A DNA stretch of 22,618 nucleotides from a virus. The stretch lies in IMG/VR virus record IMGVR_UViG_3300044614_001201, positions 1 through 22,618 of that record. One strand, given 5' to 3'. This document shows positions 6,323-14,652 of the stretch, one piece after another; the stretch's first letter is position 1, and every line of letters begins with the position of its first letter. Both the position numbers and the translations under genes were made by a program. Under the pieces are notes generated by a model, which saw only the letters and a list, made by a program, of their open reading frames with translations, had not been told where the DNA came from and ran no database searches.

Positions 6323-7612
6323 TTAACTTACCTTACCTGAAAATGAATCTCTTACGAGAGTAAGACTTGTAAAAGTGTCTTTTGGAGTAATTCTATGACA
6401 TAAACTAGCAATCATATACTTTCCTTTAGTTTGCATATTTGGTTTTTTATTTTCAATTTTTGCAAGATCTGGGAAATCACACTCAATCATATCCCCCGCA
6501 TGAAGACTGAAATCTCCTGGAATCATAATATGAGTCTTAATGCTATATAGCTGATTATATCTCATAATTGATTGGACCATTGTGTTTGGTGCATCAAAAT
6601 TAGGATCTGTTGGTTTTGCTTTCCAATTTTTTAATTGCTCTTTAGCATCTTTTCCCGATGGTAGTGTTCCTAAATCTAATACGTGATTCATAAATCTAGT
6701 CGGAAGTTTAGTAAATTCTTTATCAACAAATAGAATATTATCGGCAGCGATTTCAATTTTAGATTTTTGATCATTCTCTAAAGAATAAGTTCTCACTTGA
6801 TAATCCATAGCATAAAAATCAAAGAAAATACTACGGTTATGATACATTCCCAATGACATGTTTTGCTGCAAATCTATATTCCTATCAATTTTTACATTGA
6901 TAATTTTTCCATCATATCCTTCTGGTGTTTTTGTGGAATTTGTATAAACATATTTTTTCTTTGGTTCTTGCTTTAAAAGAACATCAATTGATTTAAACTT
7001 AAATGCTTCACTTGTTTCATACATAAAATAACCTGCAGCACCACCAATCCCCTTTTCCGGAACTGCCTTTGATGCTAACCAAGTACAGACATATAATGGT
7101 TTTCTATCATTTCCTATAAAATTATAATTAACACCTGTCTTATCAATATCTAATTTCTTTTTAACTTGTAATCCTTTTGGATCGGTAAGTATTTTCCTAA
7201 CTGATTCTGAAATATCTCTTTCAAATCTAGTAACGACTCTTGATTGTTCATTCGCAATGAATTCTTTAGTGCAAAAATCTAACATATAAACATCATTTGA
7301 AGTTCCTGGTGATGAACTATTCACACGATTTACATATAAATCTAAATCAAGTTTATTTGGTTTAGATTGATTATCCTCGATAATCAACTTTACAAACTCA
7401 CCACCACGAATTGGAAGACCATCCAACAATCCTATCATTTCTTTTTGATTTGGTTCTAAACCACCAGATTCAGCAATAATAGCAGTTGCTGAAATTGTAT
7501 TTGAAAGTACATTTTCATAATATTTAATCTCAGGTGAAACCTGACTAATATCTTTTGACTTAACTTCAAACTTTTTTATATTGCCCGATAAGGCGGCTTC
7601 ATTACTTGCCAT
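6323..7612 (-). CDS. 27: Baseplate hub protein, gp27-like
   Basis: A 429-residue protein (T4 gp27 is about 390). The C-terminal part reads IMIPGDFSLHAGDMIECDFPD and then KGKYMIASLCHRI, ending SLTLVRDSFSG. This follows the pattern of gp27/gpD hub proteins, where a beta domain closes with 'kG-Y-I--v-H' and a final 'L-l-RD'. An N-terminal segment (GGEFVKLII, LYVNRV, VYMLDFCT) fits the tail-tube-like first domain. It lies between the tape-measure genes and gp5, the usual hub position, and overlaps the upstream stop by one base (TAATG). The assignment rests on pattern and position. Confidence 0.6.
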   Translation of the reverse strand: MASNEAALSGNIKKFEVKSKDISQVSPEIKYYENVLSNTISATAIIAESGGLEPNQKEMIGLLDGLPIRGGEFVKLIIEDNQSKPNKLDLDLYVNRVNSSSPGTSNDVYMLDFCTKEFIANEQSRVVTRFERDISESVRKILTDPKGLQVKKKLDIDKTGVNYNFIGNDRKPLYVCTWLASKAVPEKGIGGAAGYFMYETSEAFKFKSIDVLLKQEPKKKYVYTNSTKTPEGYDGKIINVKIDRNIDLQQNMSLGMYHNRSIFFDFYAMDYQVRTYSLENDQKSKIEIAADNILFVDKEFTKLPTRFMNHVLDLGTLPSGKDAKEQLKNWKAKPTDPNFDAPNTMVQSIMRYNQLYSIKTHIMIPGDFSLHAGDMIECDFPDLAKIENKKPNMQTKGKYMIASLCHRITPKDTFTSLTLVRDSFSGKVS

Positions 7613-10600
7613 TAGATTTTGTACATTGAAGATGAGATTAATTGTCTGGAGACCATTCCATAACTATTTACCATACCATCAACAAAAGATGGTTTATACC
7701 CACTACCATTCTTTCTTACTGGTTGTGCAGATTGTCCGCCAGGACTTTGGACAAGCATAATCATTCCATTTGATTTATCATAAGATGCTGTTTGACTTAA
7801 GTCGGGTATTGTTGATTTAATTGCAGGATCCCCAAGAACTTTGTAGTTCAATGCAAAGTCTGATATTTGTGCTGCTGGTGGAGCACCTGGAGCAGATCCA
7901 GAACCTGGCGCTGATAAATCTGTTCCAGATGGTGCTAAACCAGCACCTTTAAATTCAAAGTGTCCTCCGTGGCTTCCTGGATAATCATTAGCAACCCAAC
8001 CATAATTTCTACCATTCTTTCTAATCCAAGAATTAGAACCACCATGAATATCCATTGCAATTCCAGACATATGGAGTGATCCACTCGCTCCCCCAACTGC
8101 TCTATTTTTTTCTGGACTTCTCTTACTGCTTGAAACATCTGATGCTTTAACTTTTCCACCAGAATCTTTCATCATTTTATAGAAAGCTTCAGCAGCACCC
8201 TTACTAAAGACTACAGGTCTTCCTTGCTCATCTTTGGCACCTTGAATGGTATATCCAGGTCCAGTATCCCAAATACCTTTTGTGGAAACAATTCCACTTC
8301 CACCACCTCTACCACCTTTAGCTGCTGCAGGATCCCCAAGAACTTTATAGTTTGCTGCGAAATCTGATATTTGAACTCCTTCGGATGGTGCTGATGGGGC
8401 ACCTGGCGATCCCGAAGATCCTGGAGAAGATGCACCTGCAATTGATGGATCTGGTTGTATAGATCCACCGAAAGGAGATTCCTTATTATATTTTGATAAA
8501 GGATTGAATCTAGAAAGAACTGCTGATTTTGGCATTCCATTATCTCTTGGATTCGTTGCTGCTTCCCAATGCAGGTGAGGTCCACTAGAAAGTCCAGTGC
8601 TCCCCAGTGGACCCAAAATAGTTCCTTTCTTAATTTTTTGACCACGCTTAACATACGCGGGTTTATCCATGTGTGCATAAAAATGCCCAATTCCCGTATT
8701 ATCAATCCAATTGACCCAATTACCATAATTACCTTGATTTCCAGTTGCTTCAACAACACCATCGGTAAATGCTTGTAGTGGTTCTCCTCTTGTTCCCGAA
8801 ATATCAACACCCATATGCATTCCAGGAGACAATGCAAAATTTCGCATTCCCATATCTGATGTGACTTGATGATTTCCACCCATTGCTAGGAACGGAACTT
8901 TGTGGCGCTTCACTCCATTAACACCACCGCCTCCAGCAGATTTATATTTTGAAATATTAGCGTTAAACCTTGCAACAAAAGTCTTAGATGATGTGTTCTG
9001 CTGACTTCCTCCTGGAAGAGATGGCCAAGTTCCTCGTAATTTTGCAGATGCTGATAGAGGATCTTTTTGTGCATCTTTAACAAGTTGTGCCTCACCACCA
9101 GGATAAACACTTGCCATTAGCATCCTGGCAATTTTTGTTTGATTTTCTGGATTAAATTTATCTTTGTCTGGATTTAATCCAGAACTTTTTGCTCTTCCTA
9201 TAATAAATTCTGGCATTTGTTGCCATTTACCCATCGCTCCAGAACCACCTAAAGCATAACCTTTTTGCATTGCAGCTCTTCTAGCATCTGCAATGGTCAT
9301 ATTGCTCAATCCTGGAACGGTTGTTGAAGGATTGACAGAATCCCAACTTCCTTCACCACCAGAAATAGCTTCCAACATTGCCTTCACTTCTGGAGAAGCA
9401 TTGCCTGGAAGCATACCACCGCCTGCCCCACCAGCTGCTGGTTGATCTCCAGGTCCTCCTGGTGTAGGTTGCGCTTCTTCTTTCTTTTCCTGTAATAATT
9501 TAAATTGATTTTCTTGAGATTTTACATCAACGAATATTTTTCTCTTTGCCCAATCTGTTAAGTTCTTACTAAATTGTCCGATTATTCTTTTATTAAATCC
9601 TGGAACACTAAATTCATCATTTTTCAAAGCAATACCAATTGAGGAACCAATAGATTCTGCAATTGCATCTGTTCTTGGTTTAGATACTTTTTCGCCTAAA
9701 CTAATATCCAAACCAAGTTTCATTGCCTCACCGATGAATGGTATAGCACCATAAGTTGAAGAAAGATTTGCAAATCTCTTTGCACTCTCTTCATCTTTTA
9801 AAATGGTTCCTTTTGCTTTTTTCAGTGTTTGTGGAGATATTGCAGATGAACCAGTTGTTTTTCTTTGAATACTTGTAGATCTTGATAAAGTTCTTTTTGA
9901 TCCTCCACCTCTGATATTTACTTGACCGCCATATGCTCTTCCTTCAATTGGATTTTCCTTATCTGCTTCAGCAACTCTTCCAGTTAAATTTTTATAAATT
10001 TCTTTGCCAGCCCAATCACCAATACCAGCACCGACAGATCCGCCTATAAAAGCACCAAGTCCTGGTATTGGAATCAAACCTTGTCCTATTGCGCCACCAA
10101 TACCAGCACCTAGAGTTGCTCCTATTGCTCCAACTATAGCACGATCTAGTTTTTCTCCCAGTGCTAAATCAATACCGATACCAATTAAAGCACCAACTAC
10201 AGGAACTCTTTTGAAAATTTTAGAGAATGATTTAAATCTTTTTATAATATTTGCTGTCGTTTTTACTCCACCTTTACCGGCAATAGATAATACCGCTCTT
10301 GTTCCCGCTCTACCAACACCCCTCTTTAAAATATTTCCAGCTGCACCAGCAACCCCCCTAGCACCTTGCTCTAATACCTCACCTCCAACCCTTTTAACTA
10401 AGGATGCTAGTGGTCCTTTAACCAGATTAAAGATTACTCCACCTGCTTTTTTGAATAAATTTCCAGCAATTCTCCCAGCTTTGAATAATAATTTACCAAT
10501 CAGTTTGGCGGGAGGTCCAATAATTTTTGAAGTTAATTTTGCAATAAACTTAACTTGTTTAGGAAATACTGTCGTTAATGTAATAATTCCAAGTTTTAAT

Positions 10601-11298
10601 ACATTCCAAGTATTAGTGAGACCTTCACCAATTTCCTTAAACATCCTAAGAATCGTTGGACCATTCTTAAGCAAAATATTAAGTAGACTTCCTATTAAAA
10701 CATTTAATAGGAATCTCTTAATCATATCAAAGAGACCAACCTTAGGTGCAGTTATTCCTAACTTTTTCTTCTTCTTAGTATCTTTCTTTTCTTCTAAATT
10801 TTTTTCTTGCTCCTCTGCCTTTTTCTTTCTACCTTCTATAAAGTTGAGACGACTTTCTTGTTTTTGATTAAGAAGTTTCTGTGTTGATATCTCTTTAACT
10901 TTTATAAAATCAACTTTTATTTCATCAAGTTCTTTTAAAATTTCTCCACGAACACCATCAGATTTAACTAATGCTCCACCTGGTTTCTTATCTTCAGTCT
11001 TAACTAAAGCACCAGATGAACTTTTAACTATTGCTGAAGATTTTCTTAAAACTAATGCACCACCTTTCTTAATTTTATTTCCAAAAGTTTTAGTTTTGGA
11101 AAGAAGTTTTTCAGTAGATATTGTTTTTTTCTTTCCTTTTGCTTTTTCTTTTACAATTGATAAGGCTTTGTCTTTTGCGCTATCAATTGCTTTTTGTTTA
11201 AAAGTATTTGCAATTGCCCCACGAATACCTCCTCCAGCAGCTGCACGAGCGCCACCAGACAAAAGCATTCTTCCTGCAGTTAGAAGTAAAGGAAGCAT
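7612..11298 (-). CDS. Tape-measure-like tail protein with three cell-wall hydrolase domains
   Basis: A 1228-residue protein. Residues 30-185 are Lys-rich helices. Residues 186-211 (FDMIKRFLLNVLIGSLLNIL) match the preceding large tail protein. Residues 360-445 are Gly/Ala/Ile-rich hydrophobic helices, duplicated in degenerate form at 515-590. Residues 638-790 look like a lysozyme or muramidase fold (ISGGEGSWDSVN with E649; GAMGKWQQMP; NPENQTKIARMLM). Residues 808-915 are an M23 endopeptidase (HMGVD with H828 and D832; FYAHMD with H876; GPHLHWE with H908 and H910). Residues 1065-1117 are an M15-like peptidase (SLHMSGIAMDI with H1076 and D1083; HGGHFEF with H1113). It probably sets tail length and cuts peptidoglycan during DNA entry. 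Pro/Ser/Gly linkers separate the domains, and two ISDFA motifs lie in or beside them. Confidence 0.75.
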   Translation of the reverse strand: MLPLLLTAGRMLLSGGARAAAGGGIRGAIANTFKQKAIDSAKDKALSIVKEKAKGKKKTISTEKLLSKTKTFGNKIKKGGALVLRKSSAIVKSSSGALVKTEDKKPGGALVKSDGVRGEILKELDEIKVDFIKVKEISTQKLLNQKQESRLNFIEGRKKKAEEQEKNLEEKKDTKKKKKLGITAPKVGLFDMIKRFLLNVLIGSLLNILLKNGPTILRMFKEIGEGLTNTWNVLKLGIITLTTVFPKQVKFIAKLTSKIIGPPAKLIGKLLFKAGRIAGNLFKKAGGVIFNLVKGPLASLVKRVGGEVLEQGARGVAGAAGNILKRGVGRAGTRAVLSIAGKGGVKTTANIIKRFKSFSKIFKRVPVVGALIGIGIDLALGEKLDRAIVGAIGATLGAGIGGAIGQGLIPIPGLGAFIGGSVGAGIGDWAGKEIYKNLTGRVAEADKENPIEGRAYGGQVNIRGGGSKRTLSRSTSIQRKTTGSSAISPQTLKKAKGTILKDEESAKRFANLSSTYGAIPFIGEAMKLGLDISLGEKVSKPRTDAIAESIGSSIGIALKNDEFSVPGFNKRIIGQFSKNLTDWAKRKIFVDVKSQENQFKLLQEKKEEAQPTPGGPGDQPAAGGAGGGMLPGNASPEVKAMLEAISGGEGSWDSVNPSTTVPGLSNMTIADARRAAMQKGYALGGSGAMGKWQQMPEFIIGRAKSSGLNPDKDKFNPENQTKIARMLMASVYPGGEAQLVKDAQKDPLSASAKLRGTWPSLPGGSQQNTSSKTFVARFNANISKYKSAGGGGVNGVKRHKVPFLAMGGNHQVTSDMGMRNFALSPGMHMGVDISGTRGEPLQAFTDGVVEATGNQGNYGNWVNWIDNTGIGHFYAHMDKPAYVKRGQKIKKGTILGPLGSTGLSSGPHLHWEAATNPRDNGMPKSAVLSRFNPLSKYNKESPFGGSIQPDPSIAGASSPGSSGSPGAPSAPSEGVQISDFAANYKVLGDPAAAKGGRGGGSGIVSTKGIWDTGPGYTIQGAKDEQGRPVVFSKGAAEAFYKMMKDSGGKVKASDVSSSKRSPEKNRAVGGASGSLHMSGIAMDIHGGSNSWIRKNGRNYGWVANDYPGSHGGHFEFKGAGLAPSGTDLSAPGSGSAPGAPPAAQISDFALNYKVLGDPAIKSTIPDLSQTASYDKSNGMIMLVQSPGGQSAQPVRKNGSGYKPSFVDGMVNSYGMVSRQLISSSMYKI
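7822..7866 (-). repeat. ISDFA motif, copy C (in 1228-aa tail protein)
   Basis: Encodes ISDFALNYKVLGDPA, near the C-terminus of the tape-measure-like protein and directly after a Pro/Ala/Gly linker. It differs from the other two copies by A to L at one position. Confidence 0.9.
8326..8370 (-). repeat. ISDFA motif, copy B (in 1228-aa tail protein)
   Basis: Encodes ISDFAANYKVLGDPA between the M23 and M15 domains, after a Ser/Pro/Gly linker (residues 951-974). It is identical in protein to the copy in the neighbouring 818-aa gene, with several synonymous base differences. Confidence 0.9.
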
Positions 11299-11301
11299 TT
11301 C

Positions 11302-13758
11302 TTATAAACCTCCCCACATATTATAGATTGAAGCAACAACTGCTAATGTTGCTTCATCTTCTCGGAATGAACTAAACACTGTCTGGTTATTACTTCCACC
11401 ATTTGAAGAACCTGTCATCATAGGTGTTTGATTTTTTGCCGGCAATGGTAACGCTGCTATTGTTGGTTTGTTTGATGGTGGTTGTGGTATGTTTTGCTTT
11501 GGTTTATCTGGGGGCATAACCATTGCGGGAGATGTGCCAACTGCCATCACTTTTTCAGCAACAAATTTATCTTTTGCTGCTCCAGATAATCCTAATTTAT
11601 CTGGTCTCTGTCCAGGTGCTAATGCTCCAGGAGGATTCCCTGTCCCCGACTTATTATCAAGAATAGATTTTGCTAAATTTCCAGATTCTTTTTTTGATTC
11701 ATCTTTTTTAGATCCTGGAGGAACATATCCTGCTCTTGCAGGATCTCCAAGAACTTTATAATTTGCTGCAAAGTCTGATATTCCTACTGATGATGGTGCT
11801 GCTGATGAAGAACTTGAGTAAGATGAAGATCCTCCCGGAACATCAACCTGTTTTAGAGCAACATCTAATCCTTCTTTAGATCCTGGTAACTGAGAAGCAC
11901 CTTTTCTTGCAATAGCAAAATCTGCTCCTGCTCTTCTTGCATATTCTCTCGCTTTTTCAGGAGGAGCACCTTGTTTCATCCACTTCTCGTAAGTGGTATT
12001 ATATGCTTGCTTATATGCCCAATAGATATCTGCTTGAGGATCTACATTTACTTTTATAGGACCTACAAGTTTTCCAATGTTTCCACCAGACTCACTCTTA
12101 AAATGTTGAGATAGTGCAACAGAATTAATAACCATTTTGCCTTCTTGGCTACTTGGTTTAACCCCTGTTAATTGATCTCTAGCACCAAGTAGCATAGATA
12201 ATCCACCCAATCCAGCACCTTGAACTACTTTATTAATTTGTTTAACTGTGAAGTTTCCTGATCCTTCTTTTTTATAAGCAACCGTATATCTTTTAGATGC
12301 TGCACCTGAACCAACATTTATTGATGTTTGATTTGATCCTTTAATGTATAGGTCGGGGTCAAATCCTATAGTTCCACCTTCATTTGCGGCTTGAATCTTT
12401 ACATCTCCAAGAGAAGCAACATTTCTTTTAGATGATCCTCCAAACATTTTATTGATGCTATCTAAGTATGCAGGACCGCCCAACCAGTCTGCAGCACCAC
12501 CTTTTAATACATATTCACCATCTGATAGTGCAGTTAGACGCTTATCTTGGCCAAGACCCTCAATATCATAAGCGGCTGTTTGCGAATTTACAATACCACC
12601 TTCAGATGAAACTTTATCATTAAATGACAACTTCTTAGATTCGGAAGATTTTATAGGAGTGATTGGTCCTCCACCAAATTTTAATTGAATTGGTGGTCCT
12701 GATGGTGCTTGTTGTTGCTTTTTCTCACCAGTAATATCAGGACTTTGTATTTGTGGAGGTTCTGGTATATTTGGTGCTTGTGGTGCTGCCAGTTGAGGAG
12801 ATCCTGGGAGCATTTTTAATGCACCATTTAGAATATCAATAAACCCTTTCAGTGCAGAGTTAATCATATCAATAAAACTTCTGACTGGTTGAACCACCAT
12901 AAAATCAATAAATTTTATGACATTATTAAAGAATCCTACAATACCATCAACCAATCCTTGAATTGGTTTTAATAGAATCATTGGGTTTTTTATAACCTTC
13001 AACAACCACATAACAATAGATCCTAACAGCACATTCAATAAGAAATTTCTAATCGTATCAAAAATGCTAGTGAAAGGTTTTGTTATTTTCTCAAGTATTC
13101 CAGATCCCTTATCTTTTTCTTGTTTTTCTAGATCTTTTTCTTCCTGTTTTGCCTTTGTTTTTTCACCTTCTTTTCTCCTATTTTCGGCATTCTTTCTATC
13201 AACTCCAAGTTGCTTATTCAGAATACCAACCAAATCTTTAACAACAGATCCAATACCTTTAAGTGAATCAAGTAAATTTTTAAAGAAATCTGATAGATCT
13301 TCTTTAGATTCTTTCTCTTTATTTTCTTCTTGTTCTGGTTTGGGAGTCTCTGATTTTATCTTTTTATATGGTTGTATTGCACCACCAGAACCTGGTAATA
13401 ATTTAGATGCATCTGTAATGGGTTTTGCTTTTGAGGTCTTTGATTTATTAACTACCTTTTCTGCTTTTACTGCTTTTGATTTTAACTTGAACTTTCCTTT
13501 ATTTCTTTTTACTCTCTTGAATTCATCTATTAATACTGCTTGATTTTGAGATGTCTTTTTATCAGCAGGTTTCTGAGCTGCTTTCATATCAAGCTCAGTT
13601 AATTTTTCTCTGATTAGAGTTTTATATTCTCCATATTCAAAGTCAAAGACATCCTCCAGACCCAAGAGTTTTAAAATTCTTGGGTCAATATCCTCCTCGA
13701 CTAACTCCTCATCATTAGCAGTTTGTTCGTATTGAGATTTGGAGGTGTCTGTTTCCAT
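11302..13758 (-). CDS. Tape-measure-like tail protein, first of tandem pair
   Basis: An 818-residue protein. Residues 60-225 are highly charged and Lys/Glu-rich (helical or coiled-coil). Residues 227-310 are hydrophobic helices starting FTSIFDTIRNFLLNVLLGSI, matching the downstream 1228-aa protein. Residues 395-445 contain a segment typical of tape-measure proteins (LTALSDGEYVLKGGAADWLG, then YLDSINKMFGG). Residues 560-640 include a soluble helical unit (ADIYWAYKQAYNTTYEKWM). The rest is Pro/Ser/Gly-rich, with one ISDFAANYKVLGDPA motif. It starts one base after the small frameshift-partner ORF, exactly where a tape-measure gene sits after its chaperones in other long-tailed phages. No enzyme motif seen. 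The T4 counterpart may be gp29, but I cannot prove homology. Confidence 0.65.
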   Translation of the reverse strand: METDTSKSQYEQTANDEELVEEDIDPRILKLLGLEDVFDFEYGEYKTLIREKLTELDMKAAQKPADKKTSQNQAVLIDEFKRVKRNKGKFKLKSKAVKAEKVVNKSKTSKAKPITDASKLLPGSGGAIQPYKKIKSETPKPEQEENKEKESKEDLSDFFKNLLDSLKGIGSVVKDLVGILNKQLGVDRKNAENRRKEGEKTKAKQEEKDLEKQEKDKGSGILEKITKPFTSIFDTIRNFLLNVLLGSIVMWLLKVIKNPMILLKPIQGLVDGIVGFFNNVIKFIDFMVVQPVRSFIDMINSALKGFIDILNGALKMLPGSPQLAAPQAPNIPEPPQIQSPDITGEKKQQQAPSGPPIQLKFGGGPITPIKSSESKKLSFNDKVSSEGGIVNSQTAAYDIEGLGQDKRLTALSDGEYVLKGGAADWLGGPAYLDSINKMFGGSSKRNVASLGDVKIQAANEGGTIGFDPDLYIKGSNQTSINVGSGAASKRYTVAYKKEGSGNFTVKQINKVVQGAGLGGLSMLLGARDQLTGVKPSSQEGKMVINSVALSQHFKSESGGNIGKLVGPIKVNVDPQADIYWAYKQAYNTTYEKWMKQGAPPEKAREYARRAGADFAIARKGASQLPGSKEGLDVALKQVDVPGGSSSYSSSSSAAPSSVGISDFAANYKVLGDPARAGYVPPGSKKDESKKESGNLAKSILDNKSGTGNPPGALAPGQRPDKLGLSGAAKDKFVAEKVMAVGTSPAMVMPPDKPKQNIPQPPSNKPTIAALPLPAKNQTPMMTGSSNGGSNNQTVFSSFREDEATLAVVASIYNMWGGL
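11737..11781 (-). repeat. ISDFA motif, copy A (in 818-aa tape-measure-like protein)
   Basis: Encodes ISDFAANYKVLGDPA directly after a serine-rich linker (residues 643-657). It is the third copy of this 15-residue motif, and lies in a separate gene from copies B and C. Confidence 0.9.
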
Positions 13759-13759
13759 T

Positions 13760-13921
13760 CTACTGCTGTGCTTGTTTTGCCCTTTCTTCTTCTAGATGCT
13801 GTTGAAGTAGAGTCACATAAATGTCCCTTTCCCAAGGAAGCATATTTTCAATCTCTGTTAATGAATATTTATGATACTGCATCAAGGCAAAATTAAGCTT
13901 ATAGTAGTTCTCAAGGTCCAT
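13760..13921 (-). CDS. Small tail-assembly ORF, likely -1 frameshift partner of gp26
   Basis: A 53-codon frame from ATG 13921 to TAG 13760, with an in-frame alternative ATG at 13930. The protein starts MDLENYYKLNFALMQYHKYS and contains ENMLPWERDIYVTLL, ending in charged helix. This is the profile of the short 'T' half of tail assembly chaperones in long-tailed phages: a PWERD-type motif in a small helical protein just before the tape measure. It lies in the -1 frame relative to gp26 and is open back through the slippery site, so a gp26 fusion of 297 residues could be made. AGGA nine bases before ATG 13921 also permits independent initiation. It ends one base before the tape-measure start. Confidence 0.75.
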   Translation of the reverse strand: MDLENYYKLNFALMQYHKYSLTEIENMLPWERDIYVTLLQQHLEEERAKQAQQ

Positions 13922-13958
13922 ATGGACCATTCCTATCCGAAAAAACTGGATAATCCTT
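13915..13958 (-). other. Candidate programmed -1 ribosomal frameshift signal
   Basis: Reading the minus strand, AAGGA (13958-13954) lies eight bases before the heptamer T TTT TTC (13945-13939), which is in the X-XXY-YYZ register of the gp26 frame, two codons before its TAG. Ten bases later comes the perfect palindrome GGTCCATATGGACC (13928-13915), able to form a five-pair stem with an AUAU loop. An upstream SD-like element, slippery heptamer and downstream hairpin are the three elements of bacterial -1 signals such as dnaX. A slip continues as CGG ATA GGA ATG into the small ORF with no stop. Confidence 0.7.
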
Positions 13959-14652
13959 CAAGAACTACAGTGCTTTCAACTTCAGTCTTTGGATTTGTCA
14001 ACTTAACTTCATGAGAAAGTTTTGGCATTGTTTCAAAGAACTTTTCAATTTGTTTGAATTGTTGAGAATTCATCTGATCCAAGAACTCACTGAGTTCTTT
14101 CTTTGTCACATCAGCAGTGTCCCAAACTTCTTCTTCATTATAAATTTTATCAATACAAGATGCAATCAAATCAAAAGATTGATCCATAGTATTATTCGAA
14201 TTAAAGTCGAAGTTTGATTTAATAAACTGATCCAATGAAGGATACTTCATTTCCATCATTAAATTGTTATCAATTTTAATCTTTGTTGTGTGCTCTTCAT
14301 TCTTCTTGACTTTAATATCATCAATTAAAATCTTAACTTCAACGGGAGTTTCTCCATCATCAGGTGCAATCAAATTAACTTCAATTTCTTCCCCAACAGA
14401 TTTTCCACGAATGTTAAGGAACAGATATTCAATATCAAAGGTTGGCAAGTTTTCAACCTTGATACTTTTAGATTGAATGCAATTCTTAATTACAGTCTTA
14501 ATAGCAGTTGTAATTTGCTTCATATCCTCACTTTCCAAAGCAAGAACAAGAAGTTTTTCTTCTCTAACTAAAAACGGTCTATACTTGATCGTTTCTCCAG
14601 TTGATGGCAATTCCAACTCATATGTTGGTGTAGAAATCTTTGGTAAAGGCAT
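13933..14652 (-). CDS. 26: Baseplate hub assembly protein gp26 (T4_baseplate family)
   Basis: A 239-residue protein (T4 gp26 is 208). It begins MPLPKISTPTYELELPSTGE with KYRPFLVREEKLLVLALES, then EYLFLNIRGKSVGE; these are hallmarks of the T4 gp26 baseplate-hub family. The centre is a beta-rich domain (VEVKILIDDIKVKK; HTTKIKIDNNLMMEMKYP). The C-terminus is helical (ELSEFLDQMNSQQFKQIEKF). T4 gp26 is needed for hub assembly but is not a final structural part, which is compatible with a tape-measure chaperone. AGGA lies five bases before the ATG, and a late-promoter-like AATAAATA lies 27 bases upstream. The gene ends in a slippery sequence that may send ribosomes into the next ORF. Confidence 0.8.
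   Translation of the reverse strand: MPLPKISTPTYELELPSTGETIKYRPFLVREEKLLVLALESEDMKQITTAIKTVIKNCIQSKSIKVENLPTFDIEYLFLNIRGKSVGEEIEVNLIAPDDGETPVEVKILIDDIKVKKNEEHTTKIKIDNNLMMEMKYPSLDQFIKSNFDFNSNNTMDQSFDLIASCIDKIYNEEEVWDTADVTKKELSEFLDQMNSQQFKQIEKFFETMPKLSHEVKLTNPKTEVESTVVLEGLSSFFG

Follow-up and report, generated by a model that had tools for sequence, protein, structure and literature searches.

A G/GT-type -1 frameshift very probably makes short and long tail-assembly chaperones from a single gene in the window (the whole stretch of DNA analysed here, 22,618 nucleotides of IMG/VR record IMGVR_UViG_3300044614_001201, from a T4-like marine virus), as judged from comparison of its sequence with those of relatives. 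According to this reading gp26 and the -1 ORF that follows it would be one tail-assembly-chaperone gene read two ways. The majority of ribosomes would terminate at the TAG at 13933 and release gp26, the short form, and a minority would shift into the -1 frame on T TTT TTC and read on to 13760, giving a 297-aa long form with a T domain. The slip would be helped by an SD-like contact (AAGGA) behind the ribosome and by a stem-loop ahead of it. If the pair works as G/GT does in lambda, the tape measure would be coated by many short and few long molecules, which would bring in tail-tube subunits. T4 and its near relatives encode the long form as a separate gene (51). The slippage itself, the slip rate, the stimulation by the flanks and the role in assembly are what we infer. 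The elements of the locus are as follows.

13933..14652, minus strand: gp26, 239 aa; candidate short chaperone (TAC-N, gpG-like), the proposed product of non-slipping ribosomes
13954..13958, minus strand: SD-like element AAGGA, upstream of the heptamer at a distance of 8 nt; putative stimulator of the slip
13939..13945, minus strand: slippery heptamer T TTT TTC, in gp26 register, read (AG)T TTT TTC
13933..13935, minus strand: gp26 stop TAG, with a single codon (GGA) between heptamer and stop
13915..13928, minus strand: stem-loop GGTCC-ATAT-GGACC, starting 10 nt past the heptamer; putative stimulator of the slip
13760..13939, minus strand: T domain in the -1 frame, 59 post-slip codons and a TAG; would form the C-terminal part of the predicted fusion (TAC-NC, gpGT-like)
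13928..13930, minus strand: first possible internal start, ATG; candidate start of a stand-alone T protein
13919-13921, minus strand: second internal ATG of the T ORF
11302..13758, minus strand: ORF of 818 aa that directly follows the T domain; candidate tape measure

Organization of the locus

On the minus strand of the window the 3' end of gp26 reads ...AAGGA TTATCCAG T TTT TTC GGA TAG, and the stem-loop that follows contains the perfect palindrome GGTCCATATGGACC (13928-13915), which overlaps both internal ATGs of the T ORF. The -1 frame is open to the TAG ending at 13760, so that the virtual fusion of gp26 with this frame comprises 297 aa. As in G/GT genes, the short ORF is overlapped by the -1 ORF and the slip site is close to the stop of the former. 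A preliminary description of this DNA had named the heptamer, the AAGGA, the palindrome, the -1 frame and the 297-residue fusion, and every one of these parts was recovered from the sequence with its coordinates.

The same description had placed the T ORF before the tape-measure gene. An 818-aa ORF does directly follow it, but the identity of this ORF as tape measure is weak, with E values of 0.003 and 0.0046 to phrog tape-measure profiles. In blastp comparisons T4 gp29 did not match the 818-aa ORF even at a cutoff of E 10, none of the ORFs in the corresponding position of KVP40, Cr30 and Ah1 matched it convincingly, and one weak stretch of similarity to S-PM2 was seen (79 aa, E 3.6e-5). We noted that the 818-aa ORF (11302-13758) and the 1228-aa ORF beyond it (7612-11298), which has an M23 peptidase domain, share a 111-aa stretch that is 35% identical around a hydrophobic segment, together with a 19-aa motif of 89% identity, so that either of the two may be the tape measure. 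Elsewhere in the window, the ORFs at 711-1385 (224 aa) and 1587-2255 (222 aa), which we take to be possible 2OG-Fe(II) oxygenases, have similar beginnings and look like tandem paralogues.

Taken alone, the window carries the frameshift claim only partly. Across 24 ORFs chosen by hand from its ORF list there are 64 in-register XXXYYYN heptamers (Y = A or T) among 7167 codon positions; three of the 64 are T6N, and the sole heptamer within six codons of a stop is that of gp26. Palindrome frequency and hairpin energy are ordinary: the window has two perfect 14-nt palindromes, where 50 mononucleotide shuffles average 2.08, and the 45 nt after the heptamer have a fold z of -0.74, with 45 of 200 shuffles equally or more stable. 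The case for the frameshift is a comparative one, and among relatives the signal goes far beyond chance.

Conservation of the slip site

We assembled 213 loci, comprising 80 from IMG/VR identified with the gp26 query of the window, 117 identified with five other queries, 15 regions of named phages, and the window itself; scans of IMG/VR with gp26 of Cr30 and of KVP40 gave two loci each. In the phage collection 671 records match gp26, and those examined were the named ones. Slip sites were counted in 209 of the 213 loci, one (L211) being without a match and three (L142, L202 and L206) running off the contig. The entry for L210 in this count is a gp51-type copy, and the gp26 ends of L210 and L211 were inspected separately. 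The loci are redundant, with 169 unique junctions, and 88 of the 198 described below are nonredundant at 85% identity over 110 nt.

T TTT TTN is present in register, at most four codons from the gp26 stop, in 198 of the 209 loci, as TTTTTTC (156), TTTTTTA (27) or TTTTTTT (15). The remaining 11 comprise nine T4-type loci (which carry the gene twice or are close relatives of such loci), L193, in which inspection by eye found a T6 run in register but ten codons upstream, and the locus of Vibrio phage K452, which lacks the heptamer. Of four named records added afterwards, three (LPCS28, PC-Liy1 and OLIVR6) carry T TTT TTC, and SFP10 has no canonical heptamer. Both SFP10 (L215, near 1944) and K452 (L090, near 2223) have a T-like ORF in the -1 frame after gp26 without the canonical heptamer, and this ORF may be expressed by another slip or by reinitiation. 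The -1 frame extends 155-203 nt beyond the gp26 stop in every one of the 195 non-T4-type loci that end within the contig. The heptamer and the -1 register had been proposed as features that relatives should share, and with T TTT TTN kept in 198 of 209 loci that claim stands.

Conservation of the heptamer was also examined codon by codon in the 64 unique sequences among the 81 loci of the window clade. Both heptamer codons (TTT and TTC) are invariant in 64 of 64, whereas none of 122 other degenerate columns is (columns with at least 90% amino-acid conservation, the last ten codons left out); third positions vary around the heptamer but not in it. The codon before the heptamer encodes Ser in 60 of the 64 and is then solely AGT or TCT. 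Elsewhere in 171 unique genes we counted 175 Phe-Phe pairs, of which eight are written T TTT TTT and none T TTT TTC. In 27 loci the second heptamer residue is Leu rather than Phe, and the slip run is kept as T TTT TTA. These comparisons show a slippery heptamer conserved in register under constraint at the nucleotide level.

Flanking signals

Predicted folding around the slip site was measured in the 88 nonredundant loci. Mean fold z reaches its minimum, -1.83, in the 50-nt segment starting right after the heptamer; the two neighbouring 50-nt segments have -1.30 and -1.23, and the rest of the range from -400 to +120 stays within -0.75 to +0.42. The controls behind these values take no account of kinship among the loci. 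The segment after the heptamer has a fold z below -1.5 in 55% of the loci, and 45% do not reach that value; in some of the 88 there is no clear stem after the heptamer. Stem types follow clades, with GGTCC/GGACC in the window clade and GCCCTC/GAGGGC in the relatives of P-HM2. An A/T-rich stem of 14 predicted pairs was observed just after the gp26 stop in S-PM2 (L082).

For the window clade, covariation was assessed in 52 unique 40-mers from the 81 loci, with the stem taken from the window's own sequence. The five stem pairs are paired in 90.4% of cases against a shuffle mean of 80.9% and maximum of 84.6%, and there are 35 double-change cells against a mean of 8.1 and a maximum of 24, kinship among the sequences being ignored in both comparisons. 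When the stem partners are slid, at most 54% pair. On the upstream side, pairing to the anti-SD peaks in the 8-mer starting 15 nt before the heptamer, where it averages -6.68 over the 88 loci against -5.47 under synonymous randomisation (z -8.3, kinship again ignored). Constraint on the SD-like element exceeds that imposed by the amino-acid sequence. SD-like element and stem-loop are each constrained across relatives, and both are putative stimulators of the slip.

These flanks bear on a different source for the fusion. Homopolymer runs can cause transcriptional slippage, and RNA polymerase rather than the ribosome might slip on the T6 run. We regard this as extremely improbable: transcriptional slippage needs no reading register, and the kept register, together with the conserved SD-like and stem-loop flanks, is a feature of ribosomal frameshifting. 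Slippage of transcription at such runs is among the subjects treated in PMC5009743.

It is also conceivable that the stem-loop hides or exposes the start of a stand-alone T protein instead of stimulating a slip, which would be compatible with a frameshift. The overlap of the window stem-loop with both internal ATGs speaks for such a role, but the relatives of P-HM2 have their stem (GCCCTC..GAGGGC) at the same place and most of them have their first ATG at the tenth codon, and we hold masking of a start to be highly unlikely as the function of the stem.

Expression of the T ORF

A further alternative treats the T ORF as a small gene in its own right (gp51), expressed by reinitiation or coupling at the ATG just after the gp26 stop, the poly-T run being driven by protein sequence or composition. 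An ATG does occur in the first nine post-slip codons in 43 of the 88 nonredundant loci, the window included, and many of 60 among 584 matched records carry a separate 'baseplate hub assembly catalyst' annotation. The other 45 loci lack an ATG in these nine codons: in 14 the first one falls in codons ten to fifteen, and 31 are without one up to codon fifteen, a stretch in which conserved T residues are already found. If GTG and TTG are allowed as well, 27 of the 88 still lack any start in these fifteen codons. In the loci without an early start the conserved T residues begin before any start codon. The annotations themselves are uneven: the T-domain gene is absent from the records of ACG-2014d, Ah1 and LPCS28 and shortened in those of P-HM2 (a stub of 30 aa), Melnitz (47 aa) and C48C1 (34 aa), and the cases of P-HM2 and ACG-2014d count against a separate gene. 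So do the heptamer codons, invariant where other codons vary, and T4 gp51, which has N and T domains in one chain. We consequently give a separate T gene little probability beside the frameshift. Since the window has early ATGs, an additional stand-alone T product may be made there alongside the fusion.

Relationship to T4 gp26 and gp51

The gp26 of the window belongs to PF12322 (E 9.5e-75) and phrog_150 (E 1.6e-79). Its T ORF, taken as the 56 aa from the first ATG, matches phrog_634, 'baseplate hub assembly catalyst' (E 4.4e-28), and also the C-terminal end of phrog_150, positions 240-281 of 282 (E 1.6e-6). T4 gp51 covers positions 13 to 280 of phrog_150, which means that this profile itself contains the fused form.

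We compared a profile of 87 virtual fusions (one of the 88 was dropped by length) with T4 sets of seven homologues each, using hhalign. Against T4 gp51 the fusion profile gave a probability of 99.7 and an E value of 3.9e-26 at 18% identity in a one-to-one comparison, with columns 1-288 aligned to 1-249, that is, end to end through the junction. Against T4 gp26 the probability was 99.8, and only columns 12-241 were aligned. The T part alone matched the C-terminus of gp51 with a probability of 95.4 (E 5.7e-9). The end-to-end alignment supports the earlier proposal that gp26 and its neighbour are a G/T pair, and the fold of the gp26 N-domain, described below, lends it weak support.

PF12322 occurs in two copies in six genomes, namely T4, RB43 and four T4-type genomes from IMG/VR, and none of their six gp26-type ends has T6N within 30 nt of the stop. 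The other 18 named records that were searched whole have a single copy, and 16 of them have the heptamer, the exceptions being K452 and SFP10. Within the 22.6-kb fragment of its genome that the window represents, PF12322 was found once, and there is no T4-type two-gene pair (two PF12322 genes, the long form in one piece); the rest of that genome may hold a second copy. Genes 26 and 51 of T4 are separate and divergent, on opposite strands. In RB43 (L218, 1501-2794) we observed a gp51-type gene in tandem directly before the gp26-type gene, whose end, inspected by eye, has T TTA AAG in register. The Straboviridae are split, with the frameshift layout in Ah1, KVP40, PC-Liy1 and LPCS28 and the two-gene layout in T4 and RB43.

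We lean slightly towards a history in which the frameshift is ancestral across the T4 superfamily and was replaced in the T4 lineage by a duplication that froze gene 51, with RB43 as an intermediate. At the same modest strength, a little better than even, the ancestral frameshift would extend to phages of cyanobacteria, Caulobacter, Rhizobiales, Stenotrophomonas and Pseudomonas putida and to the KVP40, Ah1 and LPCS28 genera of the Straboviridae.

Fold and function of gp26

The AlphaFold2 model of gp26 has a mean pLDDT of 86. A Foldseek search of the model against the PDB returned no match at E 0.001 or better; the second match was 2ob9, the HK97 tail assembly chaperone (E 1.1, probability 0.75). 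VIA alignment to 614 chains placed 3fgx (Z 8.0), 2ob9 (Z 7.7) and 3klu (Z 7.2) first, values that the tool calls common, followed by Z values of 5.3 and 2.8, and the top three matches all lie within residues 1-96 of the model. In the text of PMC9603447, as far as the part available to us goes, these three are phage tail assembly chaperones, two of them being uncharacterised in its table. In favour of the resemblance of gp26 to chaperones, the three best matches are all of one kind, and the model weakly suggests a chaperone-like fold for the N-domain.

Sections of a T4 review (PMC3004832) present gp26 and gp51 as hub assembly chaperones, gp51 being required yet absent from the particle, and cite genetic work that placed gp26 in the baseplate hub, the latter being a point against the present reading. 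For lambda, according to the relevant portion of PMC5009743, G and GT attach to the tape measure, and T attaches to tube subunits, which it may also recruit. By analogy, we infer that the gp26/fusion pair would do the same job as lambda G/GT.

Relation to known systems and implications

The locus resembles lambda G/GT in having a short ORF and a -1 ORF before the tail-length gene, here a candidate one, a slip site near the stop and, as predicted here, two forms per locus. It differs in that the slip run here is T6, from which the lambda slip heptamer departs, and in that the N-protein belongs to the family of T4 gp26 and has an additional C-terminal half. The comparison with T4 runs along other lines: gp26 of T4 aligns to the short part and gp51 to the whole of the predicted fusion, but T4 has two genes on opposite strands, no T6 at the gp26 end, and two PF12322 copies. 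A 2022 paper by Vladimirov, Gautam and Davidson deals with T4-like tail assembly chaperones, and its title reportedly stresses a mechanism other than frameshifting.

The sources for the -1 frameshift of tail chaperones are Levin 1993 and Xu, Hendrix and Duda 2004, both cited in PMC5009743, where the passage concerned describes the G-T frameshift as widely conserved, T4 excepted. In the Vandenendeviridae and Andersonviridae, which are other phage families than those of the gp26 phages, a GTTTTT that is invariant close to the end of TAC-N, together with an open -1 frame, likewise led to the proposal of a -1 frameshift, and the downstream ORF was likewise annotated as a separate gene, as reported in the relevant part of PMC12846349. 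Passages in two papers cite Vladimirov 2022: PRFect (PMC10885494) in connection with T4-like phages that have both a short gene and a longer, fused one, and PMC12846349 in connection with poly-T slip signals in TAC-N genes of T4-like phages. Frameshifting in some phages of this group may therefore have been published before. The preliminary remark that T4-like phages are rarely annotated with a frameshift fits the records examined, and needs qualifying in view of that 2022 paper, cited as it is for poly-T slips. The portions of PMC5009743, PMC10885494 and PMC12846349 available to us contain neither the breadth, nor the constraint on three signals, nor the contrast between one and two copies. 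Searches of the literature collection used here on cyanophage and T4-like frameshifting and tail chaperones returned no title on the gp26/T locus, which does not prove absence, and a search on cyanophage ribosome profiling found no title on that subject.

The frameshift reading would bring a large part of the T4 superfamily, ocean cyanophages included, under the recoding rule of other long-tailed phages, and would explain T4 gp51 as a hard-wired long form. It also has a consequence for annotation, T-domain genes being missing or shortened in several phage records, and it would allow the proportion of short to long form to be tested directly in cultured cyanophages. If the ancestral frameshift did give way to gene 51, the T4 lineage would constitute a natural experiment in which recoding was traded for duplication.
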